Below are positions 3,096-11,220 of a stretch of 11,220 nucleotides of DNA, piece by piece. The stretch's first letter is position 1; the number at the start of each line of letters is the position of its first letter. The notes beneath the pieces were generated by a model. That model saw nothing but the letters and a program-made list of their open reading frames with translations, was not told the origin of the DNA and did not search any database. A program made the translations under genes and the position numbers. Source of the DNA: Candidatus Hodarchaeaceae archaeon (GTDB lineage: Archaea; Hadarchaeota; Hadarchaeia; Hadarchaeales; Hadarchaeaceae). The DNA is taken from positions 1 through 11,220 of the forward strand of contig JASEGJ010000028.1 in the NCBI GenBank assembly GCA_030018135.1. Reading direction: 5' to 3'.

Positions 3096-4373
3096 ATGCA
3101 AATGGCTGAGGCTAGGCGCGGCGTGGCGACAGAAGAAATCCGGGCCGTGGCGAAGGATGAGGAGAAACCCATCAAACACGTCATGAAAATGCTCGCCATG
3201 GGCCGGATCGTGATCCCGCGGAATGTCAGGCGCGAGGGCATCAAAGTTAAGGGGATCGGGGAGGGGCTGCGGATCAAGGTTAATGCAAATGTCGGCACTT
3301 CGCCCGATTATGCGGATGTTCAAGAGGAGGTCGAAAAAGCCAAGACAGCGGTCAAATACGGGGCCGATACCGTTATGGATTTGAGCGTGGGGGGTGACAT
3401 CGACGAAGTTAGGAGGCGAATCCTCCGCGCCGTCGAGGTGCCGATCGGAACTGTCCCGATTTACCAGGCAGGGGTCGAGGCCGCAAAAGGGGGCAGCGTA
3501 GTGGACATGACCTCCGACGATATCTTCAACGCCATCCGTAAACATGCGGACGATGGCGTGGATTTCGTGACGGTCCATTGCGGTGTGACCAAGGCTGCAG
3601 TTGATGCGCTGCTTCGCCAACGCCGCCTGACTGACGTGGTAAGCAGGGGCGGCTCTTTTTTGATAGCTTGGATGGTGCACCACGGCGAGGAAAACCCGCT
3701 TTACAAGGAGTTCGACTACTTGCTCGAAATTGCTCACAAATACGACCTCACGCTCAGCTTGGGCGATGGTATGCGGCCGGGCTGCTTGGCAGACGCCTCG
3801 GATCGGGCGCAGTTCCAAGAACTCCTAACGCTCGGCGAACTCGTGGAACGAGCTTGGGCGAAGGACGTACAGGTCATAGTCGAGGGGCCTGGGCACCTCC
3901 CGCTCGATCACATCGAGGCGAATGTCAGGCTCCAGAAAAGCGTATGCAGGGGTGCGCCCTTTTACGTGCTTGGGCCGATCGTGACCGATATCGCGCCGGG
4001 CTATGACCATATCGTCGGTGCGATTGGCGGGGCGATCGCGGCTTGGGCCGGTGCTGACTTCTTGTGCTATGTGACCCCCTCGGAGCACATCTGCTTGCCG
4101 AACATCGAGGATGTCAAAGAGGGGGTGATGGCGACGAGAATAGCTGCCCACGCGGCAGATGTCGTCAAAGGCATCGATGTCGAGCGCGATGCAGAGATGG
4201 CGAGAGCGCGAAAGGAATTGAATTGGACAAAACAGTTCGAGTTGGCGATCGACCCTGAGAAAGCCAAAGAACTAAGGCGTAGACGCCCACCCCTTATTGA
4301 CCCCACCGCCTGCGCGATGTGCGGCAAATACTGCGCGATGAGAATGGCGAGCGAGTACTTAGCCAAACTTTAG
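3096..4373 (+). CDS. thiC: Phosphomethylpyrimidine synthase ThiC
   Basis: Predicted 425-residue short form without the long N-terminal extension of many bacterial enzymes. ThiC is a radical-SAM enzyme that rearranges aminoimidazole ribotide to HMP phosphate, the pyrimidine half of thiamine. Conserved blocks are NVGTSPD (65-71), GTVPIYQA (118-125), DFVTVHCGVT (156-165), SRGGSFLIAWM (183-193), SLGDGMRPGC (221-230), VEGPGHLPLDH (262-272, metal-binding His), TDIAPGYDHI (297-306) and TPSEHICLP (327-335). The C-terminal 4Fe-4S motif is CAMCGKYC (406-413), spaced CX2CX3C. A methionine two codons later (3102) is an alternative start; GAAGG about eight bases before 3096 gives weak support to the first. 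The main alternative is the ThiC paralogue BzaF (benzimidazole synthesis), but no cobamide genes are nearby. Transcription is divergent from the SAM hydrolase operon and convergent with rubredoxin. Confidence 0.94.
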   Translation: MQMAEARRGVATEEIRAVAKDEEKPIKHVMKMLAMGRIVIPRNVRREGIKVKGIGEGLRIKVNANVGTSPDYADVQEEVEKAKTAVKYGADTVMDLSVGGDIDEVRRRILRAVEVPIGTVPIYQAGVEAAKGGSVVDMTSDDIFNAIRKHADDGVDFVTVHCGVTKAAVDALLRQRRLTDVVSRGGSFLIAWMVHHGEENPLYKEFDYLLEIAHKYDLTLSLGDGMRPGCLADASDRAQFQELLTLGELVERAWAKDVQVIVEGPGHLPLDHIEANVRLQKSVCRGAPFYVLGPIVTDIAPGYDHIVGAIGGAIAAWAGADFLCYVTPSEHICLPNIEDVKEGVMATRIAAHAADVVKGIDVERDAEMARARKELNWTKQFELAIDPEKAKELRRRRPPLIDPTACAMCGKYCAMRMASEYLAKL

Positions 4374-4394
4374 ACGTCAGGGAGCTTAAACATC

Positions 4395-4553
4395 TCACGC
4401 CTTTTCGAACATGTCCTTCGACGCGCCACATACCGGGCATACCCAGTCTTCTGGTAAGTCCTCGAAAGGTGTGCTCGGGCTTATGCCGGAGCTTGGGTCA
4501 CCGCTCTCCGGGTTATAAACATATCCACAAACAGTACATCTCCACTTTTGCAT
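4395..4553 (-). CDS. Rubredoxin
   Basis: Predicted 52-residue protein with the full rubredoxin signature: CTVCG (Cys6, Cys9) and CPVCG (Cys39, Cys42) bind one iron, with the conserved aromatic [10 protein letters not shown] after the first knuckle and the [11 protein letters not shown] segment before the second. Rubredoxins are small soluble one-electron carriers, typical of anaerobes, serving for example superoxide reductase, rubrerythrin or flavodiiron proteins; none of these partners is in the window. The ATG at 4553 follows a good ribosome-binding site (GAGGTGA, about four bases away). The gene ends 21 bases from the thiC stop (convergent) and is divergent from the class V aminotransferase. 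Confidence 0.96.
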
Positions 4554-4597
4554 TTCTTCACCTCTAAGTAGTGTTTTTGCTCGCTACGTTATGTTTA

Positions 4598-4616
4598 GGC
4601 TTTTTTGTGTAAAGCC
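4598..4616. repeat. Inverted repeat upstream of rubredoxin
   Basis: GGCTTT (4598-4603) and AAAGCC (4611-4616) are perfect 6-base arms around a 7-base T/G-rich loop. The repeat is 45 bases upstream of the rubredoxin ATG, beside a weak TATA-like stretch (TAAACATAACG on the minus strand, about 4585-4595). It could be an operator; it may also be chance. Confidence 0.25.
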
Positions 4617-4646
4617 ACGAGTTTTTGGTTATTCGCCAGGCGATGG

Positions 4647-4681
4647 GCACCAATCGGTGCTTACAGTGGCCGGGCCAGTAA
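4647..4681. repeat. Two adjacent dyads in the rubredoxin/aminotransferase divergent region
   Basis: The first dyad is GCACC-AATC-GGTGC (4647-4660), a perfect 5-base stem. Directly after it, 4661-4681 is a near-palindrome: TTAC, a two-base bulge, TGGCC, one base, GGCCA, GTAA. Both lie in the roughly 190-base gap between divergent genes, where regulator-binding sites are expected. As RNA they would form two hairpins in tandem. Their role is unproven. Confidence 0.35.
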
Positions 4682-4759
4682 ACATGACCCAATCCGTGAA
4701 AAATGGATGCCAGCATAACGATTAAGAAGCTTGAGTTCCGCAGACGTATGGGTACGAAG

Positions 4760-5860
4760 ATGACCTACAAAAAACAACTCATAATGCTCCCGGGCCCTAC
4801 GAATGTTCCTGAGCGCGTCATGAATGCCATGACAAAGCCCATCATAAATCACCGCGGCCCGGAATTTCGCGAACTTTACGATAGCCTGCTCAAAAAATTA
4901 AGATACGCGTTTCAGACAAAAAACGATGTTTTCACCTTAACCTCCTCGGGTACCGGAGGCGTCGAGTGCGCGATAAGCAACATCCTCTCGCCAGGTGACA
5001 AGGTTTTGGTTCCGGTCAACGGCGTCTTCAGCCAGAGATTAAAGGAGAAGATCGAGACCTTCGGAGGCTCACCGATAGAGATACCAGTCAAGTGGGGGGC
5101 AGCGGCCACGCCTGATCAAATAGCAGATGCCGCAGAGGGGCAGGATGTCAAGGCGATTGCCGTAGTATATAACGAGACATCGACGGGCGTAACGGCACGA
5201 GTTTTAAATGAAATAGGGAAGATAGCCGAGGAGCATGATGCCCTCTACATCGTAGACGCGATCTCCATCTTGGGCGGGGACGAGCTGCCAGTTGACAAGT
5301 GGGGCATAGACATCTGCATAGCCGGGAGCCAAAAATGCTTGGCCTGCCCGCCCGGGCTGGCGTTGATATCCATAAGCGGCCACGCTTGGGAGGTAATTAG
5401 ACAAACCAGGTCAAAGGCCTACTATTTTAACCTCCTTAAAATCCAAGAGTTTCACGAGCGAAAAGAGACGCCCTTTACGCCTGCTTTGACGCTTTGGTAC
5501 GCGCTGGATGAGGCTTTAACTATGCTGGAGGAAGAGGGACTCGAAAAGCGCATAAAAAGGCACGAGGAGTGCGCTCGCGCCTTCTACGATGCGGTACGGG
5601 AATTTGGGTTGGAACCGTTCGCAGATGAGCACTGGCTTTCAAATACTGTCATTGCGGTAAAAAACCCGCCTGGGATAACGGACAAGGAAATCCGCGACTT
5701 AATGCGTGAAAAACATGGCGTGGTGATCGCAGGAGGGATGGGTCAGCTAAAGGGAACGATGTTCAGGATAGGCAGTATGGGCATCATTACGGGGCGGGAG
5801 GTAGCGGCGACGGTGCAAGCCCTCCGAAGTAGCCTGGAGGAACTCGGGTACTTTAAATAA
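4760..5860 (+). CDS. Class V PLP aminotransferase (serine/alanine-glyoxylate aminotransferase family)
   Basis: Predicted 366 residues from this ATG. Family marks are PGPTNVPERV (11-20), NHRGPEF (30-36), the phosphate-binding SSGTGG (62-67), VDAISILGG (165-173, Asp contacting the PLP ring nitrogen), the PLP-lysine motif AGSQKCLACPPG (K192) and LKGTMFRIGSMG (330-341). Relatives move amino groups between alanine, serine or aspartate and glyoxylate or pyruvate; the substrate cannot be read from sequence alone. The start is uncertain. In-frame ATGs at 4703 and 4748 would add 19 or 4 residues, none has a strong ribosome-binding site, and the fold begins just after 4760. A second aminotransferase, of class IV, follows after 27 bases on the same strand. 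Possible roles are serine/glycine or glyoxylate metabolism, with alanine or 2-oxo acids shared with the neighbour. Confidence 0.88.
   Translation: MTYKKQLIMLPGPTNVPERVMNAMTKPIINHRGPEFRELYDSLLKKLRYAFQTKNDVFTLTSSGTGGVECAISNILSPGDKVLVPVNGVFSQRLKEKIETFGGSPIEIPVKWGAAATPDQIADAAEGQDVKAIAVVYNETSTGVTARVLNEIGKIAEEHDALYIVDAISILGGDELPVDKWGIDICIAGSQKCLACPPGLALISISGHAWEVIRQTRSKAYYFNLLKIQEFHERKETPFTPALTLWYALDEALTMLEEEGLEKRIKRHEECARAFYDAVREFGLEPFADEHWLSNTVIAVKNPPGITDKEIRDLMREKHGVVIAGGMGQLKGTMFRIGSMGIITGREVAATVQALRSSLEELGYFK
5852..5859 (+). promoter_or_regulatory. TATA-like element over the stop codon of the class V aminotransferase gene
   Basis: TTTAAATA overlaps the upstream gene's TAA and sits 20-36 bases before the candidate starts at 5879, 5882 and 5888. 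That spacing would allow a separate, nearly leaderless transcript of the class IV aminotransferase in addition to read-through. Confidence 0.35.
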
Positions 5861-5887
5861 CGAGGGAAAATATCTATCGTGGTGTTC

Positions 5888-6811
5888 ATGTCCATAACTC
5901 CGACGAAATTCATATGGATGGATGGAAAACTCGTCCCGTGGGATAAGGCTAAAGTTCACGTGCTTACCCATACCTTGCACTATGGCCTTGGGGTCTTCGA
6001 AGGAATCAGATGCTACAAAACCCAAAAGGGTTCAGCCGTTTTTAGGCTGCGAGACCACATCAAAAGACTCGAAAACTCCGCTAGCGTTATGGGGATTAAG
6101 ATCCCATATTCATTCGAAGAGCTTGTGAATGCAGTTAAAAGGGTAATAAAGGCGAACAAGATCGGGGAGTGCTACATCAGACCCATAGTATATTATGGCT
6201 ATGGGGTGATGGGGCTAGATCCAACTGGTTCACCGGTAAATGTGGCGATTGCTGTCTGGCCATGGGGGACCTATCTTGGCGAAGAAGGGCTGAAGAGGGG
6301 GGTCAGGGCAATGGTCTCCTCTTGGCTCCGCATCGACTCGAGAATGCTGCCCCCTCACTCGAAGACCGTTGCAAATTACACCAACTCAATCCTTGCGAAG
6401 CTTGAAGCGGTGAAGGCTGGCTACGATGAGGCTATCCTGCTCAACATTCATGGGTTCGTTGCGGAGGGACCCGGCGAAAATATCTTCCTCGTGAAGGACG
6501 GCGTACTTATAACACCGCCCCTTTCCTCAAGCGCGCTTGGGGGAATTACTAGGGACTCCATAATAAAAATTGCCCAAGATAAGGGCATGCCTGTGCGAGA
6601 GGAAAATGTTTCGCGGGATCAGCTTTATGAGGCGGATGAGGCTTTCTTCACTGGCACCGCGGCCGAGGTAACGCCGATAAGGGAAATCGACGGTCACACG
6701 ATAGGAAACGGGAAAATGGGAAAAATTACTGGGGACCTCCAACACACATTTTTTGAAGCGGTTCGAGGAAAAGTGGCGAAATACATATCTTGGCTAGACT
6801 ACGTGGAATAA
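5888..6811 (+). CDS. ilvE: Branched-chain-amino-acid aminotransferase (class IV PLP)
   Basis: Predicted 307 residues, typical of IlvE, which exchanges amino groups between leucine, isoleucine or valine and 2-oxoglutarate. Motifs are WMDGKLVPWDKAKVHVLTH (10-28), YGLGVFEGIRCY (32-43), the PLP lysine in HSKTVANYTNS (K159), the AEGPGENIF loop (192-200) with the PLP-contacting glutamate, LGGITRDS (217-224) and EAFFTGTAAEVTPI (251-264). D-amino-acid transaminase and aminodeoxychorismate lyase share the fold, but the FEGIRCY and AEGPGENIF segments fit the branched-chain group best. GTG codons at 5879 and 5882 are alternative starts; ATG 5888 is preferred on family alignment. It lies 27 bases after the class V aminotransferase, with its own possible TATA element. 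A nested palindrome follows the stop. Confidence 0.9.
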   Translation: MSITPTKFIWMDGKLVPWDKAKVHVLTHTLHYGLGVFEGIRCYKTQKGSAVFRLRDHIKRLENSASVMGIKIPYSFEELVNAVKRVIKANKIGECYIRPIVYYGYGVMGLDPTGSPVNVAIAVWPWGTYLGEEGLKRGVRAMVSSWLRIDSRMLPPHSKTVANYTNSILAKLEAVKAGYDEAILLNIHGFVAEGPGENIFLVKDGVLITPPLSSSALGGITRDSIIKIAQDKGMPVREENVSRDQLYEADEAFFTGTAAEVTPIREIDGHTIGNGKMGKITGDLQHTFFEAVRGKVAKYISWLDYVE

Positions 6812-6814
6812 CCC

Positions 6815-6850
6815 CGATTTTTGTTCTTTAAAGAAATCTAGCAAAAATCG
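6815..6850. terminator. Nested inverted repeats after ilvE (possible terminator or operator)
   Basis: The outer arms CGATTTTTG (6815-6823) and CAAAAATCG (6842-6850) are perfect over 9 bases. Between them lies the perfect 12-base palindrome TTCTTTAAAGAA (6824-6835). The structure begins three bases after the ilvE stop and ends about 24 bases before the TATA element of the next gene. It is AT-rich for a hairpin terminator, and archaeal termination usually needs only a T-run, so a regulator-binding site is an equal alternative. Confidence 0.4.
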
Positions 6851-6873
6851 AGAAATTTGAACGCATACAAAGG

Positions 6874-6883
6874 TTATTTAAAA
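6874..6883 (+). promoter_or_regulatory. TATA-like promoter element of the TIM-barrel/P-loop operon
   Basis: TTATTTAAAA is a strong archaeal TATA-like element ending 28 bases before the ATG at 6912. Transcription would start close to 6900-6905, and GGTGAG (6903-6908) supplies the ribosome-binding site. Confidence 0.5.
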
Positions 6884-6911
6884 GTCAAAAGATAATCCCG
6901 ACGGTGAGCAA

Positions 6912-7880
6912 ATGAGGCTAGGCAGGAACTTCACCAACCTACTTTATTTTGATTATCTTAGCGATGATGATAAGCGCAAATTTGAGGCGGGTGGGCTTAA
7001 TGTCGCCGATATGGATGCGACCGTTCAAATGATTGCAAAAGGGGACATCGTGAGGCAGGTGTTGGCCGCCAAGGCGTACAGTATCGATCATATTGAGTTC
7101 GATGGCGCAGTGCCCAACCCATACCTAACTTTCACGCAGGAGGACAAACAGAGGGCAAAAAACATTGCACATGAAAACGGCATTACCCTCTCGTTACACC
7201 TGCCCTACTCCTATGTTGGAGCAAGCCTCTGTGCCCCCGATGAGGTGGACAGGCAAGCGGCAAGCGACCTTCAGAAACGCTACATAGAGTTTGCGTCCGA
7301 CCTCGGCTGCAAGTGCTGCGTATTACACCCGGGTATCGCACCATTCCATCATGCGAATGGGAAATATCTAGAGCAGGTTAGGAATAGCCTAATTAAAAGC
7401 TTGCTTGAGCTGGCCACATTTGCGGCTGATCGCGGTATAGAGCTTCACCTCGAGAACAACACGGTTTTTGAGAGGGTTTTTGTGGAGCTAAGTGAAATAT
7501 GCGAGGTACTCGAGGAAGTTAGGGGAAATGGGGCCGCTGTTTACTTTTGCTTCGATATAGGTCATTGGCTTACCCGCGCCGATGTCGGCATGCGGATACC
7601 TAGCCAACCTGAGCGCATCTTAGAGGGGATGCCCGATGGCATGTTCAAGGAGCTACATCTAAACGATTACGTGCCCGGTAAGCGGATCTTCCACCCGCCA
7701 CTCCATGAAGGGATTGGCTTGCTGAGGCATGAGAACCTCAAGCGCTACGCTGAGCTCGTTTCGAAGAAGGGCGTAGAACTCATCGTGGTAGAAACTGCAG
7801 CCGGAACCAAAGAACAGGTCATGCAACGCGATAAAATCCTGCGCGAGGAAACCGAGTATTTGCGGAGCATTTTCGGATGA
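6912..7880 (+). CDS. Xylose-isomerase-like TIM-barrel protein (sugar phosphate isomerase/epimerase type)
   Basis: Predicted 322 residues with the pattern of the AP endonuclease 2/xylose-isomerase-like superfamily. Strand ends carry likely metal ligands: IEFDG (61-65), SLHLPYS (94-100), VLHPG (137-141), LHLENN (178-183, E181), CFDIGHW (213-219, D215 and H218), ELHLND (247-252, H249) and IVVETA (291-296, E294). This set fits a divalent-metal enzyme acting on a sugar, sugar phosphate or related polyol; endonuclease IV activity is the alternative but seems less likely without its full His set. The substrate is unknown. Cysteines cluster at 133-136 (CKCC), which is unusual. GGTGAG before the ATG and a TATA-like element support the start. 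A P-loop kinase-like gene follows after four bases, so the pair probably acts in one pathway. Confidence 0.75.
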   Translation: MRLGRNFTNLLYFDYLSDDDKRKFEAGGLNVADMDATVQMIAKGDIVRQVLAAKAYSIDHIEFDGAVPNPYLTFTQEDKQRAKNIAHENGITLSLHLPYSYVGASLCAPDEVDRQAASDLQKRYIEFASDLGCKCCVLHPGIAPFHHANGKYLEQVRNSLIKSLLELATFAADRGIELHLENNTVFERVFVELSEICEVLEEVRGNGAAVYFCFDIGHWLTRADVGMRIPSQPERILEGMPDGMFKELHLNDYVPGKRIFHPPLHEGIGLLRHENLKRYAELVSKKGVELIVVETAAGTKEQVMQRDKILREETEYLRSIFG

Positions 7881-7884
7881 TTTC

Positions 7885-8499
7885 ATGCCCAACGTTTTCC
7901 TAATAGGCAGGCCTGGCTGCGGCAAATCCGCCGTCTACAAGCTACTAGAGGAGGAGCTACGTGCCGCTGGCTACGGAGGTAAGCTCATGCGCATCGACGA
8001 TTTTCCCATACTCAAGCAGATTTTCGACGAAGATATCGAGCATAGACGACATCGCCCAATACCTGAAGGGGGTGTGAAGGTTACCGATGATGCGGTCTGG
8101 GATGACCTTACGAAGGCGTTAAATCAACGGGCGCTTAAGTTGCAGGATCCAAATCTCCTCCTTTTCATAGAATTTTCGCGCGACAGCTACGTTCGCGCAT
8201 TCAAGAACTTTAGCCCGGAGATCTTGCGTAATTCGCTCATACTCTACATCGACGCCCCATTCGATGTTTGCTGGGAGCGAAACGCTCGCCGCGCGCTGGA
8301 GGAGCGAGGTCTCGATGCGCATCTAGTCTCGTGGGAGGAGATGGAGAAGACCTATGCGCGGGACGACAGCAAGGAGCTACCGCGGTACGTTGACGCGCCG
8401 ATCCTCGTAGTGAAAAACGACTCGGATGACATCCAAAAATTGCGGAGGGAGCTTCAGAAAGTCGTGAAAAAACTTAAGAGAATTTTTGTATGTGTTTAG
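7885..8499 (+). CDS. P-loop nucleotide-binding protein, kinase-like
   Basis: Predicted 204 residues. The Walker A motif GRPGCGKS (8-15) sits right after the first strand, as in adenylate-kinase-like and other small nucleotide or sugar kinases. IDDFPIL follows the second strand, and the hydrophobic strand LLLFIEFSRDSY could carry the Walker B glutamate. LYIDAPFDVCWERNARRALEERG has Arg residues placed like those of an NMP-kinase lid or arginine finger. The C-terminus is Lys-rich and helical. The family is not recognised and no phosphate acceptor can be named. GGATGA inside the preceding gene's end serves as ribosome-binding site, and only four bases separate the genes, so the product is probably made together with the TIM-barrel protein. 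The pair may process a phosphorylated sugar or nucleoside (inference). Confidence 0.7.
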   Translation: MPNVFLIGRPGCGKSAVYKLLEEELRAAGYGGKLMRIDDFPILKQIFDEDIEHRRHRPIPEGGVKVTDDAVWDDLTKALNQRALKLQDPNLLLFIEFSRDSYVRAFKNFSPEILRNSLILYIDAPFDVCWERNARRALEERGLDAHLVSWEEMEKTYARDDSKELPRYVDAPILVVKNDSDDIQKLRRELQKVVKKLKRIFVCV

Positions 8500-8993: not shown

Positions 8994-10133
8994 ATGGGCA
9001 AGCTTACCTTCGAACCGGTGTGGTTCGATTCGCTTGGCGCTAAATCGTCGTGCACTTTAGTCCGTACCCCTGATGTCTCCGTCCTCATTGATCCTGGGGT
9101 CGCGGTGATGCAACCCAGCTTCCCGGCATCATGGGCGAAAAAGCTTTATTGGGAGGCCCAGGGGATGCGCGCGGTCAAGAAGGCAAGCCGCAAGGCGGAC
9201 GTAATCGTGGTATCCCACTACCACTACGACCACTTCGCCGATTTCGACCGTAAGCTCTATGAGGGAAAGCTCCTGCTGGTGAAAAACCCCAATAATTACA
9301 TAAACGATTCTCAACGTGGACGGGCGGAGAGCTTCTTCAATAACATCTGTCAAACATTTGGAGGGGTAAAGCTTGAGGATGTACTGCAAAAACATGAGCA
9401 AAAGACTTATGGTGATCCCCTAGATGAGATTCCTCGCGCCCATGATAAGGACTTTGGTGATTATAACAGGCGCCGCAGAGAACTCCTTGTGAAGGGACGC
9501 GTATGGTTTCGAAATCGCGTGAAGCATTGGAACTCGAGAAAGTTGATTCCTGAACTGAAATTCAAAGATGTCGAGGTGAGGTTCCCAGAAAGTAAGGAAT
9601 TCAAGTTTGGGCGCACAAAGCTCAAGTTCACTCGACCGCTTTTTCACGGCATCGAATTCTCGCGCGTAGGTTGGGTTTTCGCGACGGTTATCGAGCGGGG
9701 TGGAGAGAAATTAATTCATTCTTCCGACCTCAATGGCCCAATCATCGAGGATTACGCTGATTGGGTCATCCGCGAGAATCCAAATGTGTTAATCCTCGAC
9801 GGCCCAGCCACGTACCTCATCCCCTACATGCTGAACATGATAAATCTTGGGCGCTGCATCGAAAATATTTGTAAGATAATTCGAAAAGCTTTGAACATAC
9901 AGTTGATAATTCTAGATCATCACTTGCCTAGAGACATAAGATACATGAAAAGGTTGAAGGAGGTATACTCAAGCGCCGAAAGGGAGGGGAAGAAAGTTAC
10001 CACTGCTGCGGAGTATCTCGGAAAAATTCCGAAGGTTTTAGAGTTATCGAAATCAACTGAAAGTTCCAGCGGTTGGATCTTAGACAAGAGGATTAAGCGA
10101 GGATTAGGTTCAAATTCCTTGAAGACAAGTTGA
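8994..10133 (+). CDS. MBL-fold metallo-hydrolase, UPF0282-like
   Basis: Predicted 379 residues of the metallo-beta-lactamase fold. The metal motif HYHYDH (75-80) is preceded by VIVVS. Further ligands are probably H218 (PLFHGIE), D245 (HSSDLNGP) and H309/H310 (ILDHHLPRD). The N-terminal WFDSLGAKSSCTLVRTPD and the SSDLNGP and LDHHLPRD blocks fit the archaeal UPF0282 family, whose function is unknown; MBL proteins of this size include nucleases and other hydrolases. It is longer than the roughly 300-320 residues I recall for the family. A charged insert of about 55 residues (128-183) lies between the second and third metal sites, and a basic tail follows residue 350. No ribosome-binding site precedes the ATG; a TATA-like element suggests a leaderless transcript. 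It stands alone between a transposase remnant and a convergent small gene. Confidence 0.82.
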   Translation: MGKLTFEPVWFDSLGAKSSCTLVRTPDVSVLIDPGVAVMQPSFPASWAKKLYWEAQGMRAVKKASRKADVIVVSHYHYDHFADFDRKLYEGKLLLVKNPNNYINDSQRGRAESFFNNICQTFGGVKLEDVLQKHEQKTYGDPLDEIPRAHDKDFGDYNRRRRELLVKGRVWFRNRVKHWNSRKLIPELKFKDVEVRFPESKEFKFGRTKLKFTRPLFHGIEFSRVGWVFATVIERGGEKLIHSSDLNGPIIEDYADWVIRENPNVLILDGPATYLIPYMLNMINLGRCIENICKIIRKALNIQLIILDHHLPRDIRYMKRLKEVYSSAEREGKKVTTAAEYLGKIPKVLELSKSTESSSGWILDKRIKRGLGSNSLKTS

Positions 10134-10141
10134 AAAAATGT

Positions 10142-10186
10142 AGGGGATGGTATAGAGACAATCCTTGATAGAACTCTACCTCCCCT
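10142..10186. terminator. Imperfect inverted repeat between convergent genes
   Basis: AGGGGA-T-GGTA-TA-GAG (10142-10157) pairs with CTCTACCTCCCCT (10174-10186): 13 base pairs with one- and two-base bulges and a 16-base loop. It lies in the 94-base gap between the ends of the MBL gene and the small minus-strand gene, so it could end or protect transcripts from both sides. No strong T-run follows on the plus strand. Confidence 0.35.
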
Positions 10187-10227
10187 CCGCTAAACGTCAC
10201 TCCACATATGGTTTACCTTGCTGTATT

Positions 10228-10452
10228 TTACTGGTGCCCGAACATCTTTGCGTAGTAGCCGATTGGCTTTATGTCGACGATGCGCGTTTCGTGGACAACG
10301 TACTCGCCGTCCTTTGAGAGCCTTACCCTGCTCTCCACTATCGGCATTGCTGTCACCTTCTCAGCTACCCGCTCCGGCGCCAGCACAAACTCTGACTCCT
10401 CGGCCTCAGCGGCTTTTAGCATCTTAGCCAACTCCTCTGCTTTTTTTGTCGT
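10228..10452 (-). CDS. Small unrecognised protein with ambiguous (possibly ACG) start
   Basis: The minus-strand frame ends with VVHETRIVDIKPIGYYAKMFGHQ and has ordinary coding character (many GAG, AAG and GCT/GCC codons). The body is an acidic helix (AEELAKMLKAAEAEESEF) followed by what looks like a small beta-rich part (TAMPIVESRVRLSKDGEYVV). The family is not recognised and there are no membrane segments or cysteines. The start is odd. The strongest ribosome-binding site, GGAGGTGA (10465-10458), is five bases from ACG (10452), giving 74 residues starting (M)TKKAEELAK. Alternatives are ATG at 10422, nine bases after GAGGAG (64 residues), or TTG at 10497 with no ribosome-binding site (89 residues). 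Either ACG is used, an ATG was lost to a T-to-C change, or translation moved to 10422. It sits downstream, on the same strand, of a dead hypD. Confidence 0.6.
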   Translation of the reverse strand, partial: TTKKAEELAKMLKAAEAEESEFVLAPERVAEKVTAMPIVESRVRLSKDGEYVVHETRIVDIKPIGYYAKMFGHQ

Positions 10453-10497
10453 ATTAATCACCTCCCATGCCCGTCCGCAAGCTCGCACGGCATCCAA

Positions 10498-10800
10498 TTC
10501 GATTTTGACAGAGGTAGTTTATGAGGCGAAAACAACAAGGTTCTGTTTCATTTTCGGGAGATAAACTGAGAAATCTGAGATCGTCTTTAAAGTGCATGCA
10601 TGCAGGTTATGGTCCTAAAAGGGCGAGCTCGGGGATGGGGAGTCAAAAACTCCTTTTTTATCATGATCTATATCCCGAATGTAAACAAAACCAACAACAA
10701 CGTTCAAACGTCTCAAAAAATGATGTTAAAGGCCCTAGATGTGAGATCTCGATCGATGCCCCATCAAGGCCTTCGTTGATTCGGAGTAGGATAGGGTAAA
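10498..10800. other. No supported gene
   Basis: About 300 bases between the small gene and the recognisable part of the hypD remnant. Short open frames exist on both strands, but none has a convincing start, ribosome-binding site or family resemblance. By position it could hold eroded hypD sequence, yet I cannot match any of its three minus-strand frames to the later HypD motifs. A CAUAAAC-like AT patch near 10510-10520 might be a weak promoter for the small gene. Confidence 0.5.
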
Positions 10801-11171
10801 TAAAGTGTCCGTCGTGTTGTAGACGATTCTAACACTGGCGCCATCGGTTTTTGCGTCTGCAAGGGGGTACGCGTACCGAGACAAGAAAAAGATCGCCAAA
10901 GGTGGTGATGAGATGACCTCGCCTAGCGAGTTCTATCATCTTGTCGATCTCAGCCGCGCTTCATGACGCAAACGGGAAAGCCTAGCCCACCGGTAACTTA
11001 AACCCAATCTGGCAAAAGTGATCTAAGCCCATACTTTGTGATTGTCACTTCGTGACTGCCGCACGATGCATAAGTTTATCTTGCGAGCGGGCTTGATTTC
11101 TGGATTCTCTGAACGATTTGTTCCGCCAAACCACGGTTCCTAAACATCTCCTGAATCGCCAGCGCGCCCAT
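10801..11171 (-). pseudogene. hypD: Truncated, frameshifted hypD pseudogene ([NiFe]-hydrogenase maturation)
   Basis: HypD is the iron-sulfur scaffold that, with HypC, assembles the Fe(CN)2CO unit of [NiFe]-hydrogenases. The minus strand keeps its N-terminal third in pieces: EMFRNRGLAEQIVQRI, then a stop (11078-11076), CGSHEVTITKYGLRSLLPD (from the CGTH motif), a second stop (11000-10998), and GGLGFPVCV in place of GPGCPVC. A +1 shift near 10958 leads into AAEIDKMIELARRGHLITTF and GDL; another shift in a C5 run (10863-10867) leads into LADAKTDGASVRIVY up to about 10801. The remaining two thirds are absent. Two stops, two frameshifts and substitutions in the conserved Cys motifs mean it is dead, not mis-sequenced at one site. 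The probable original start is ATG 11171, after AGGTGAT. That site overlaps a stop (11184-11182) of a frame entering from outside the window, possibly the end of an upstream gene. Confidence 0.82.
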
Positions 11172-11220
11172 TTAAGTCATATCACCTAATTTTCGCCGTA
11201 AAATAGTTCTTGAGATACTT

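Follow-up and report, generated by a model that had tools for sequence, protein, structure and literature searches.

A decayed type-A hypD at its ancestral locus in a Hadarchaeota genome and its probable displacement by a foreign hypD-hypC pair

The hypD remnant and its locus

The window analyzed here is an entire contig (C20; 11,220 bp) of a metagenome-assembled archaeal genome of the Hadarchaeota (G000; 1.1 Mb, 45 contigs, 93% complete), whose closest named relatives, judged by intact HypD, are Hadesarchaea and Ca. Hadarchaeum. The product of hypD is required for making the metal centre of hydrogenase. Features of the window were compared with those of related genomes carrying one of two types of HypD, termed A and B and described below, and were as follows:

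3096..8499, plus strand: genes for ThiC, a class V aminotransferase, a class IV aminotransferase (IlvE-like), a TIM-barrel protein and a nucleoside-kinase-like protein; conserved upstream flank, common to the relatives G015 and G004
8994..10133, plus strand: metallo-beta-lactamase-fold (MBL) gene, part of the conserved hypD flank and with 70% identity to its G015 counterpart
10134..10800: no detectable trace of amrS or of the last two thirds of hypD, both of which G015 has here
10801..11171, minus strand: type-A hypD pseudogene, first ~125 codons, with the ATG at 11171-11169; by profile match and frameshift-tolerant alignment
11172..11220: TTAA target and L-end of an insertion element present in many copies, immediately 5′ of the hypD ATG; the contig ends inside the element

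The minus strand of 10801-11171 matched the Pfam HypD profile at 37.6 bits (cut-off 25), in agreement with the first-pass annotation, which had proposed a dead hypD at this position and a frameshift-aware search as its check. This search recovered a match to the HypD of G015 at 11168-10801, with 78/120 identities and an alignment score of 356 compared with a mean of 34 for shuffled sequences (SD 4.1, maximum 48, n = 200). The remnant was 65% identical to G015 HypD in the aligned part and 37% identical to the intact HypD encoded on contig C1 of its own genome. The intact type-A orthologue of G015 scored 481 bits against TIGR00075 and matched Thermococcus kodakarensis HypD (PDB 2z1d, also 3vys), the E-value to 2z1d being 7e-107. 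When set against T. kodakarensis HypD, TIGR00075 and PF01924, the remnant aligns to the N-terminal region of HypD; it differs from the T. kodakarensis protein in being truncated, frameshifted and devoid of the first Cys of GPGCPVC (C69).

The lesions of the remnant included: (i) a nonsense TAA in the ancestral frame at 11000-10998, where G015 has GAG; (ii) about five indels, the exact count of which depends on the alignment; and (iii) a Cys-to-Phe change at codon 10979-10977 (E. coli C69), by which GPGCPVC reads GLGFPVC. The altered GPGCPVC and the truncation after about 125 residues had both been recognized in the first-pass annotation and held up, with the remaining two thirds of hypD, as well as amrS, giving chance-level scores in 10134-10799 on both strands. 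Its other readings required revision: both of its two stops are present, but one is in the ancestral frame while the other TAA is a by-product of an adjacent indel; its two frameshifts fall short of the indels found; and CGSH, which it had taken for an altered CGTH, is the normal sequence of type-A HypD (13 of 13 relatives carrying this type). The C69/C72 pair of HypD is a thiol-disulfide motif considered functional (PMC12134894). With significant but frame-broken homology to HypD, Phe at the C69 codon and all residues after ~125 missing, 10801-11171 is confirmed by these comparisons as a hypD-derived pseudogene, predicted to be incapable of encoding HypD. Differences in the remnant were distributed 26/19/65 over the three codon positions; thus, a coding-like pattern persists, and its third-position bias shows that the death of the gene was recent.

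Gene order was then compared among the relatives. In G015, the locus reads ThiC, AGXT aminotransferase, IlvE, TIM-barrel protein, nucleoside kinase, MBL, amrS, hypD-A (minus strand) and phosphoesterase, with hypD-A intact and the only hypD of this genome. The hypD-A gene is divergent to the phosphoesterase gene in all 13 of the 13 type-A genomes, and the phosphoesterase gene facing hypD in these relatives is the first gene of contig C13 in G000. The nucleoside-kinase and phosphoesterase genes are neighbors 158 bp apart in G004, a type-B genome, where MBL, amrS and hypD-A are absent between them. Three stages of the locus are seen across these genomes, namely intact (G015), decaying (G000) and cleanly deleted (G004). 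Type-A hypD or hypC remnants were not detected at E < 0.05 in the hypE, MBL and phosphoesterase loci fetched from the other type-B genomes, where the exceptions were the expected type-B genes and a lone hypC match in G020 that was no better than chance (E 0.042). An orphan ORF of 89 aa (10228-10497, minus strand) was also observed between the MBL gene and the remnant; it has no Pfam match and nothing similar at related loci.

The insertion element at the start codon

The element next to the hypD ATG is present in ~10 copies; in the G000 assembly its left end was found at 10 contig ends, as was its right end. All of these ends begin TTAAGTCAT, are near-identical and have TTAA at both junctions. 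The part of the element visible at contig ends is 99 bp and includes the last 28 residues of a putative transposase, the last coding residues reading ANWFYGDLQGLEKAVRKYLKNYFTAKIR. Left ends were located in the window (11172-11220) and at the ends of C1, C13, C18, C24, C27, C28, C29, C41 and C45, while right ends were located on C6, C8 (both ends), C11, C13, C14, C27, C40, C43 and C45. The element breaks up the assembly at its copies, and many other contig ends group into such families; positions 1 to ~55 of the window, for example, are a repeated end common to C3, C5, C19 and C42 that represents a second element family. The same left end was also found just upstream of hypD-B in the type-B genome G002 (L118:5121). 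The region upstream of hypD had been considered as a palindromic promoter, which was rejected when the scan of contig ends revealed the insertion element.

The other end of the element opens contig C13. When the flanks of C20 and C13 were joined at one TTAA, a join based on synteny and the empty-site alignment, the resulting sequence aligned with the upstream region of the relatives up to the ATG. By this alignment, the element lies within a TTAA that abuts the start codon, thereby separating hypD from its promoter.

Resident and foreign types of HypD and HypC

The family comparison included 22 genomes, 20 with hypD and 19 with both hypC and hypD. The HypD proteins were of two types, with type A detected in 13 genomes (~458-474 bits) and type B in seven, including G000 (~388-416 bits); none of the 20 hypD-carrying genomes was found to have both types intact. 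HypD proteins of other Hadarchaeota families are A-like (52-56% identity to A vs 44% to B). In a HypD tree of 40 sequences, type A joined the other Hadarchaeota (100/100), and the remnant fell within the type-A clade as the sister of G015 HypD (93/80), with a branch length of 0.72 compared with 0.23 for this sister. Type B formed a single clade (100/96) inside the Thermoproteota HypDs, beside Desulfurococcales/Sulfolobales sequences. An EF-2 species tree paired G000 with G004 (100/99) and then G015 (98/98), a position of G000 that agrees with the place of the remnant in the HypD tree. Since the remnant belongs to the A clade while the hypD on C1 belongs to a B clade nested in Thermoproteota, the dead gene is ancestral and the intact gene foreign. 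Together with the locus comparison, the trees show the dead gene to be the lineage's original, phylum-type hypD, inherited vertically and still at its ancestral locus. Monophyly of the type-B genomes was rejected on the species tree (p-AU 2.6e-6), and the type-B gene tree grouped G016 with G000, G002 and G004, in conflict with the species tree; this placement of G016 suggests some lateral spread.

The intact type-B hypD of G000 (C1:28423-29520) exceeds the TIGR00075 equivalog cut-off and forms an adjacent, intact pair with a type-B hypC, in the position that the pair also occupies in G004. In several Thermoproteota relatives, too, a hypC is directly downstream of hypD. The first-pass annotation had offered, as one of two readings, that an intact second hypD exists and that the remnant is a discarded copy; the intact gene was indeed found, but the remnant is the original and the intact gene the foreign one, which has a hypC of its own. 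Thus, the same genome holds a dead resident hypD and an intact homologue of foreign origin.

The resident hypC was found to have a similar fate. The type-A hypC of G000 is at a separate locus upstream of hypA-hypE (C18:12436-~12662), where it is frameshifted while the hypA and hypE genes behind it are intact; only a single short deletion breaks it, and by itself this might reflect a mistake in assembly. This broken hypC clustered with the type-A HypCs in a HypC tree, of which we used only the A/B split (81 columns, long branches). The resident hypC is, therefore, broken in a genome with an intact hypC of the foreign type. HypC and HypD were of the same type in all 19 genomes with both, with no A/B mixture of partners. 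By phylogeny, the HypF and HypE of G000 are resident, with the HypE tree being without rows for five genomes; hypE was not found in G004 and G002, which are incomplete genomes. G003 was observed to have two intact type-A hypC-hypE loci, L168 (C3) and L169 (C24), possibly by duplication or a mixed bin.

The type-B HypC of G000 was found to be fused to a 4HBT/hotdog (YbgC-like) thioesterase (L001:657-1460, minus strand, on C1). This fusion is conserved in four type-B genomes with SDTDYLQVMHYTNY, an active-site-like motif, intact, while the HypC of G004 (type B) is unfused. HypC-hotdog fusions of other genomes are located at:

L118:3056-3850, minus strand
L116:8382-9170, minus strand
L115:10432-11205, plus strand

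A search of titles and abstracts for HypC, thioesterase and hydrogenase maturation gave no report of a HypC-thioesterase fusion among its matches.

Hydrogenase maturation and the probable takeover of the HypCD scaffold

The genome was searched for hyp genes and hydrogenase large subunits, the second check proposed with the first-pass annotation, and HypA, HypC, HypD, HypE, HypF and one large-subunit match were found. Besides the type-B HypC and HypD, G000 keeps intact HypA, HypE, HypF and a HycI protease, and the last residues of its HypE are PRIC, a motif through which cyanide is passed to HypCD (PMC12130793). The large subunit is of the [NiFe] type and retains both CxxC pairs (RICGFC and DRCISC), which argue for a [NiFe] site in this predicted protein. 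It also has a C-terminal extension, presumably of the kind that HycI-type proteases remove. The large subunit scored higher as a complex-I 49-kDa (NuoD/FpoD-like) protein than as a classic hydrogenase, as group 4 enzymes generally do. A hydrogenase-like operon was observed on contig C40 (L176:7586-11603); it is compact and encodes a ferredoxin-type protein, a 30-kDa subunit, an HdrB-like CCG protein, the NuoD-like large subunit (four cysteines) and a small subunit, with no antiporter subunits seen beside it.

Alternative explanations of the remnant were weighed against these data. The other reading of the first-pass annotation was that the lineage had lost its [NiFe]-hydrogenase, with the maturation genes in general decay, as might be suggested by the death of both type-A genes, hypC and hypD, and by a single large-subunit match that scores better as a NuoD/FpoD-like protein. 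We consider this very unlikely, and rejected it, with the maturation genes intact (i.e., HypA, the PRIC-ending HypE, HypF, HycI and the type-B HypC and HypD) and the large subunit retaining RICGFC, DRCISC and its C-terminal extension; G000 is devoid of neither a large subunit nor a maturation set. With these genes remaining, hydrogenase maturation was apparently kept and its HypCD scaffold replaced. The presence of a second, intact hypD elsewhere in G000 would also fit a remnant derived from duplication of the genome's own hypD. Tree, identity and locus all speak against this origin, which was rejected as extremely improbable: the remnant is far closer to G015 HypD than to the C1 copy, is in a different, well-supported clade from that copy, and is at the locus of the only hypD of G015, beside the phosphoesterase gene that adjoins hypD in all type-A genomes.

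Errors of assembly or consensus in a functional type-A hypD also had to be weighed, with the remnant at the end of a metagenome-assembled contig and its differences still mostly at third codon positions. As the main cause such errors were rejected as highly improbable; the lesions are many and independent, the last two thirds of hypD are gone, a key-motif Cys is replaced, the genes next to it are undamaged, hypC of this pathway is broken as well, the branch of the remnant is long, and G004 has lost hypD at the same site. A different history is that the family ancestor carried both HypCD types for different hydrogenases and that each lineage lost one along with its client enzyme, such that a specialized paralogue was lost rather than replaced; this parts from our preferred reading only in its history and in why the loss occurred. 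The scattering of type B on the species tree fits such ancient coexistence with differential loss, and further large subunits occur in some type-B genomes, in one case on the hypD-B contig (G018 C26). We nonetheless regard it as unlikely, though a reading of some weight, as none of the hypD-carrying genomes keeps both types intact, G000 has one large-subunit match, and the type-B gene tree places G016 with G000, G002 and G004 against the species tree.

The reading that we prefer, with a probability of about 90%, is that the region is a fossil of the genome's own hypD and that the HypCD scaffold has been taken over by a foreign hypD-hypC pair. HypC and HypD form one complex that bears Fe(CN)2CO and at which HypE docks (PMC6886295, PMC12134894). 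Compared with this known scaffold, that of G000 appears to be foreign in its entirety while HypE and HypF are resident, and its foreign HypC has an additional domain, the hotdog thioesterase. The displacement may have begun with acquisition of an adjacent hypD-hypC cassette of the Thermoproteota type, which would supply a complete HypCD scaffold for Fe(CN)2CO assembly and would be self-sufficient given that HypC joins HypD in a single complex (PMC6886295). Resident HypE and HypF would go on donating cyanide to the foreign HypCD; with the new scaffold thus served, the unlinked resident hypC and hypD would have become redundant together and decayed. The physical steps, whatever their order, would be element insertion, point decay and deletion, where the element either killed hypD or entered an already redundant gene. 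Mixed A/B pairs probably work poorly, and we infer that the type-B pair has assumed the function of the resident one. Given the scatter of type B over the species tree, the family ancestor may have gained the cassette a single time, one type or the other then being lost repeatedly, or the cassette may have moved between members of the family.

As in xenologous gene displacement, in which a horizontally acquired homologue replaces a resident gene, the resident copy has died where it ancestrally stood, and an intact homologue derived from another lineage is found elsewhere, presumably doing its job. This case differs from the usual one in that (i) two unlinked resident genes of one complex are both dead; (ii) the genes that came in lie side by side; and (iii) three stages of the locus are found in three related genomes. 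Formyl-CoA is among the proposals for where the CO ligand comes from under anaerobic conditions (PMC12134894); speculatively, the fusion is a candidate link to this anaerobic source. A broader proposal, which we rate as rather improbable, is that HypC and HypD can be displaced only as a pair, since cross-type pairs would fail, that HypCD is an exchangeable module docking to a foreign HypE, and that the hotdog acyl-CoA thioesterase joined to HypC in four genomes, which is apparently active, might link this module to a thioester (formyl- or acyl-CoA) from which CO would derive.

Overall, the region would represent a snapshot of a multi-protein assembly line being re-plumbed by gene transfer, in which mutually binding partners are swapped jointly while the rest of the line stays in place. 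This predicts that the HypC-A/HypD-A and HypC-B/HypD-B pairs would work, that mixed pairs would fail, and that resident HypE would serve both. Furthermore, the HypC-thioesterase fusion may offer a concrete candidate for how the CO ligand is supplied under anaerobic conditions.
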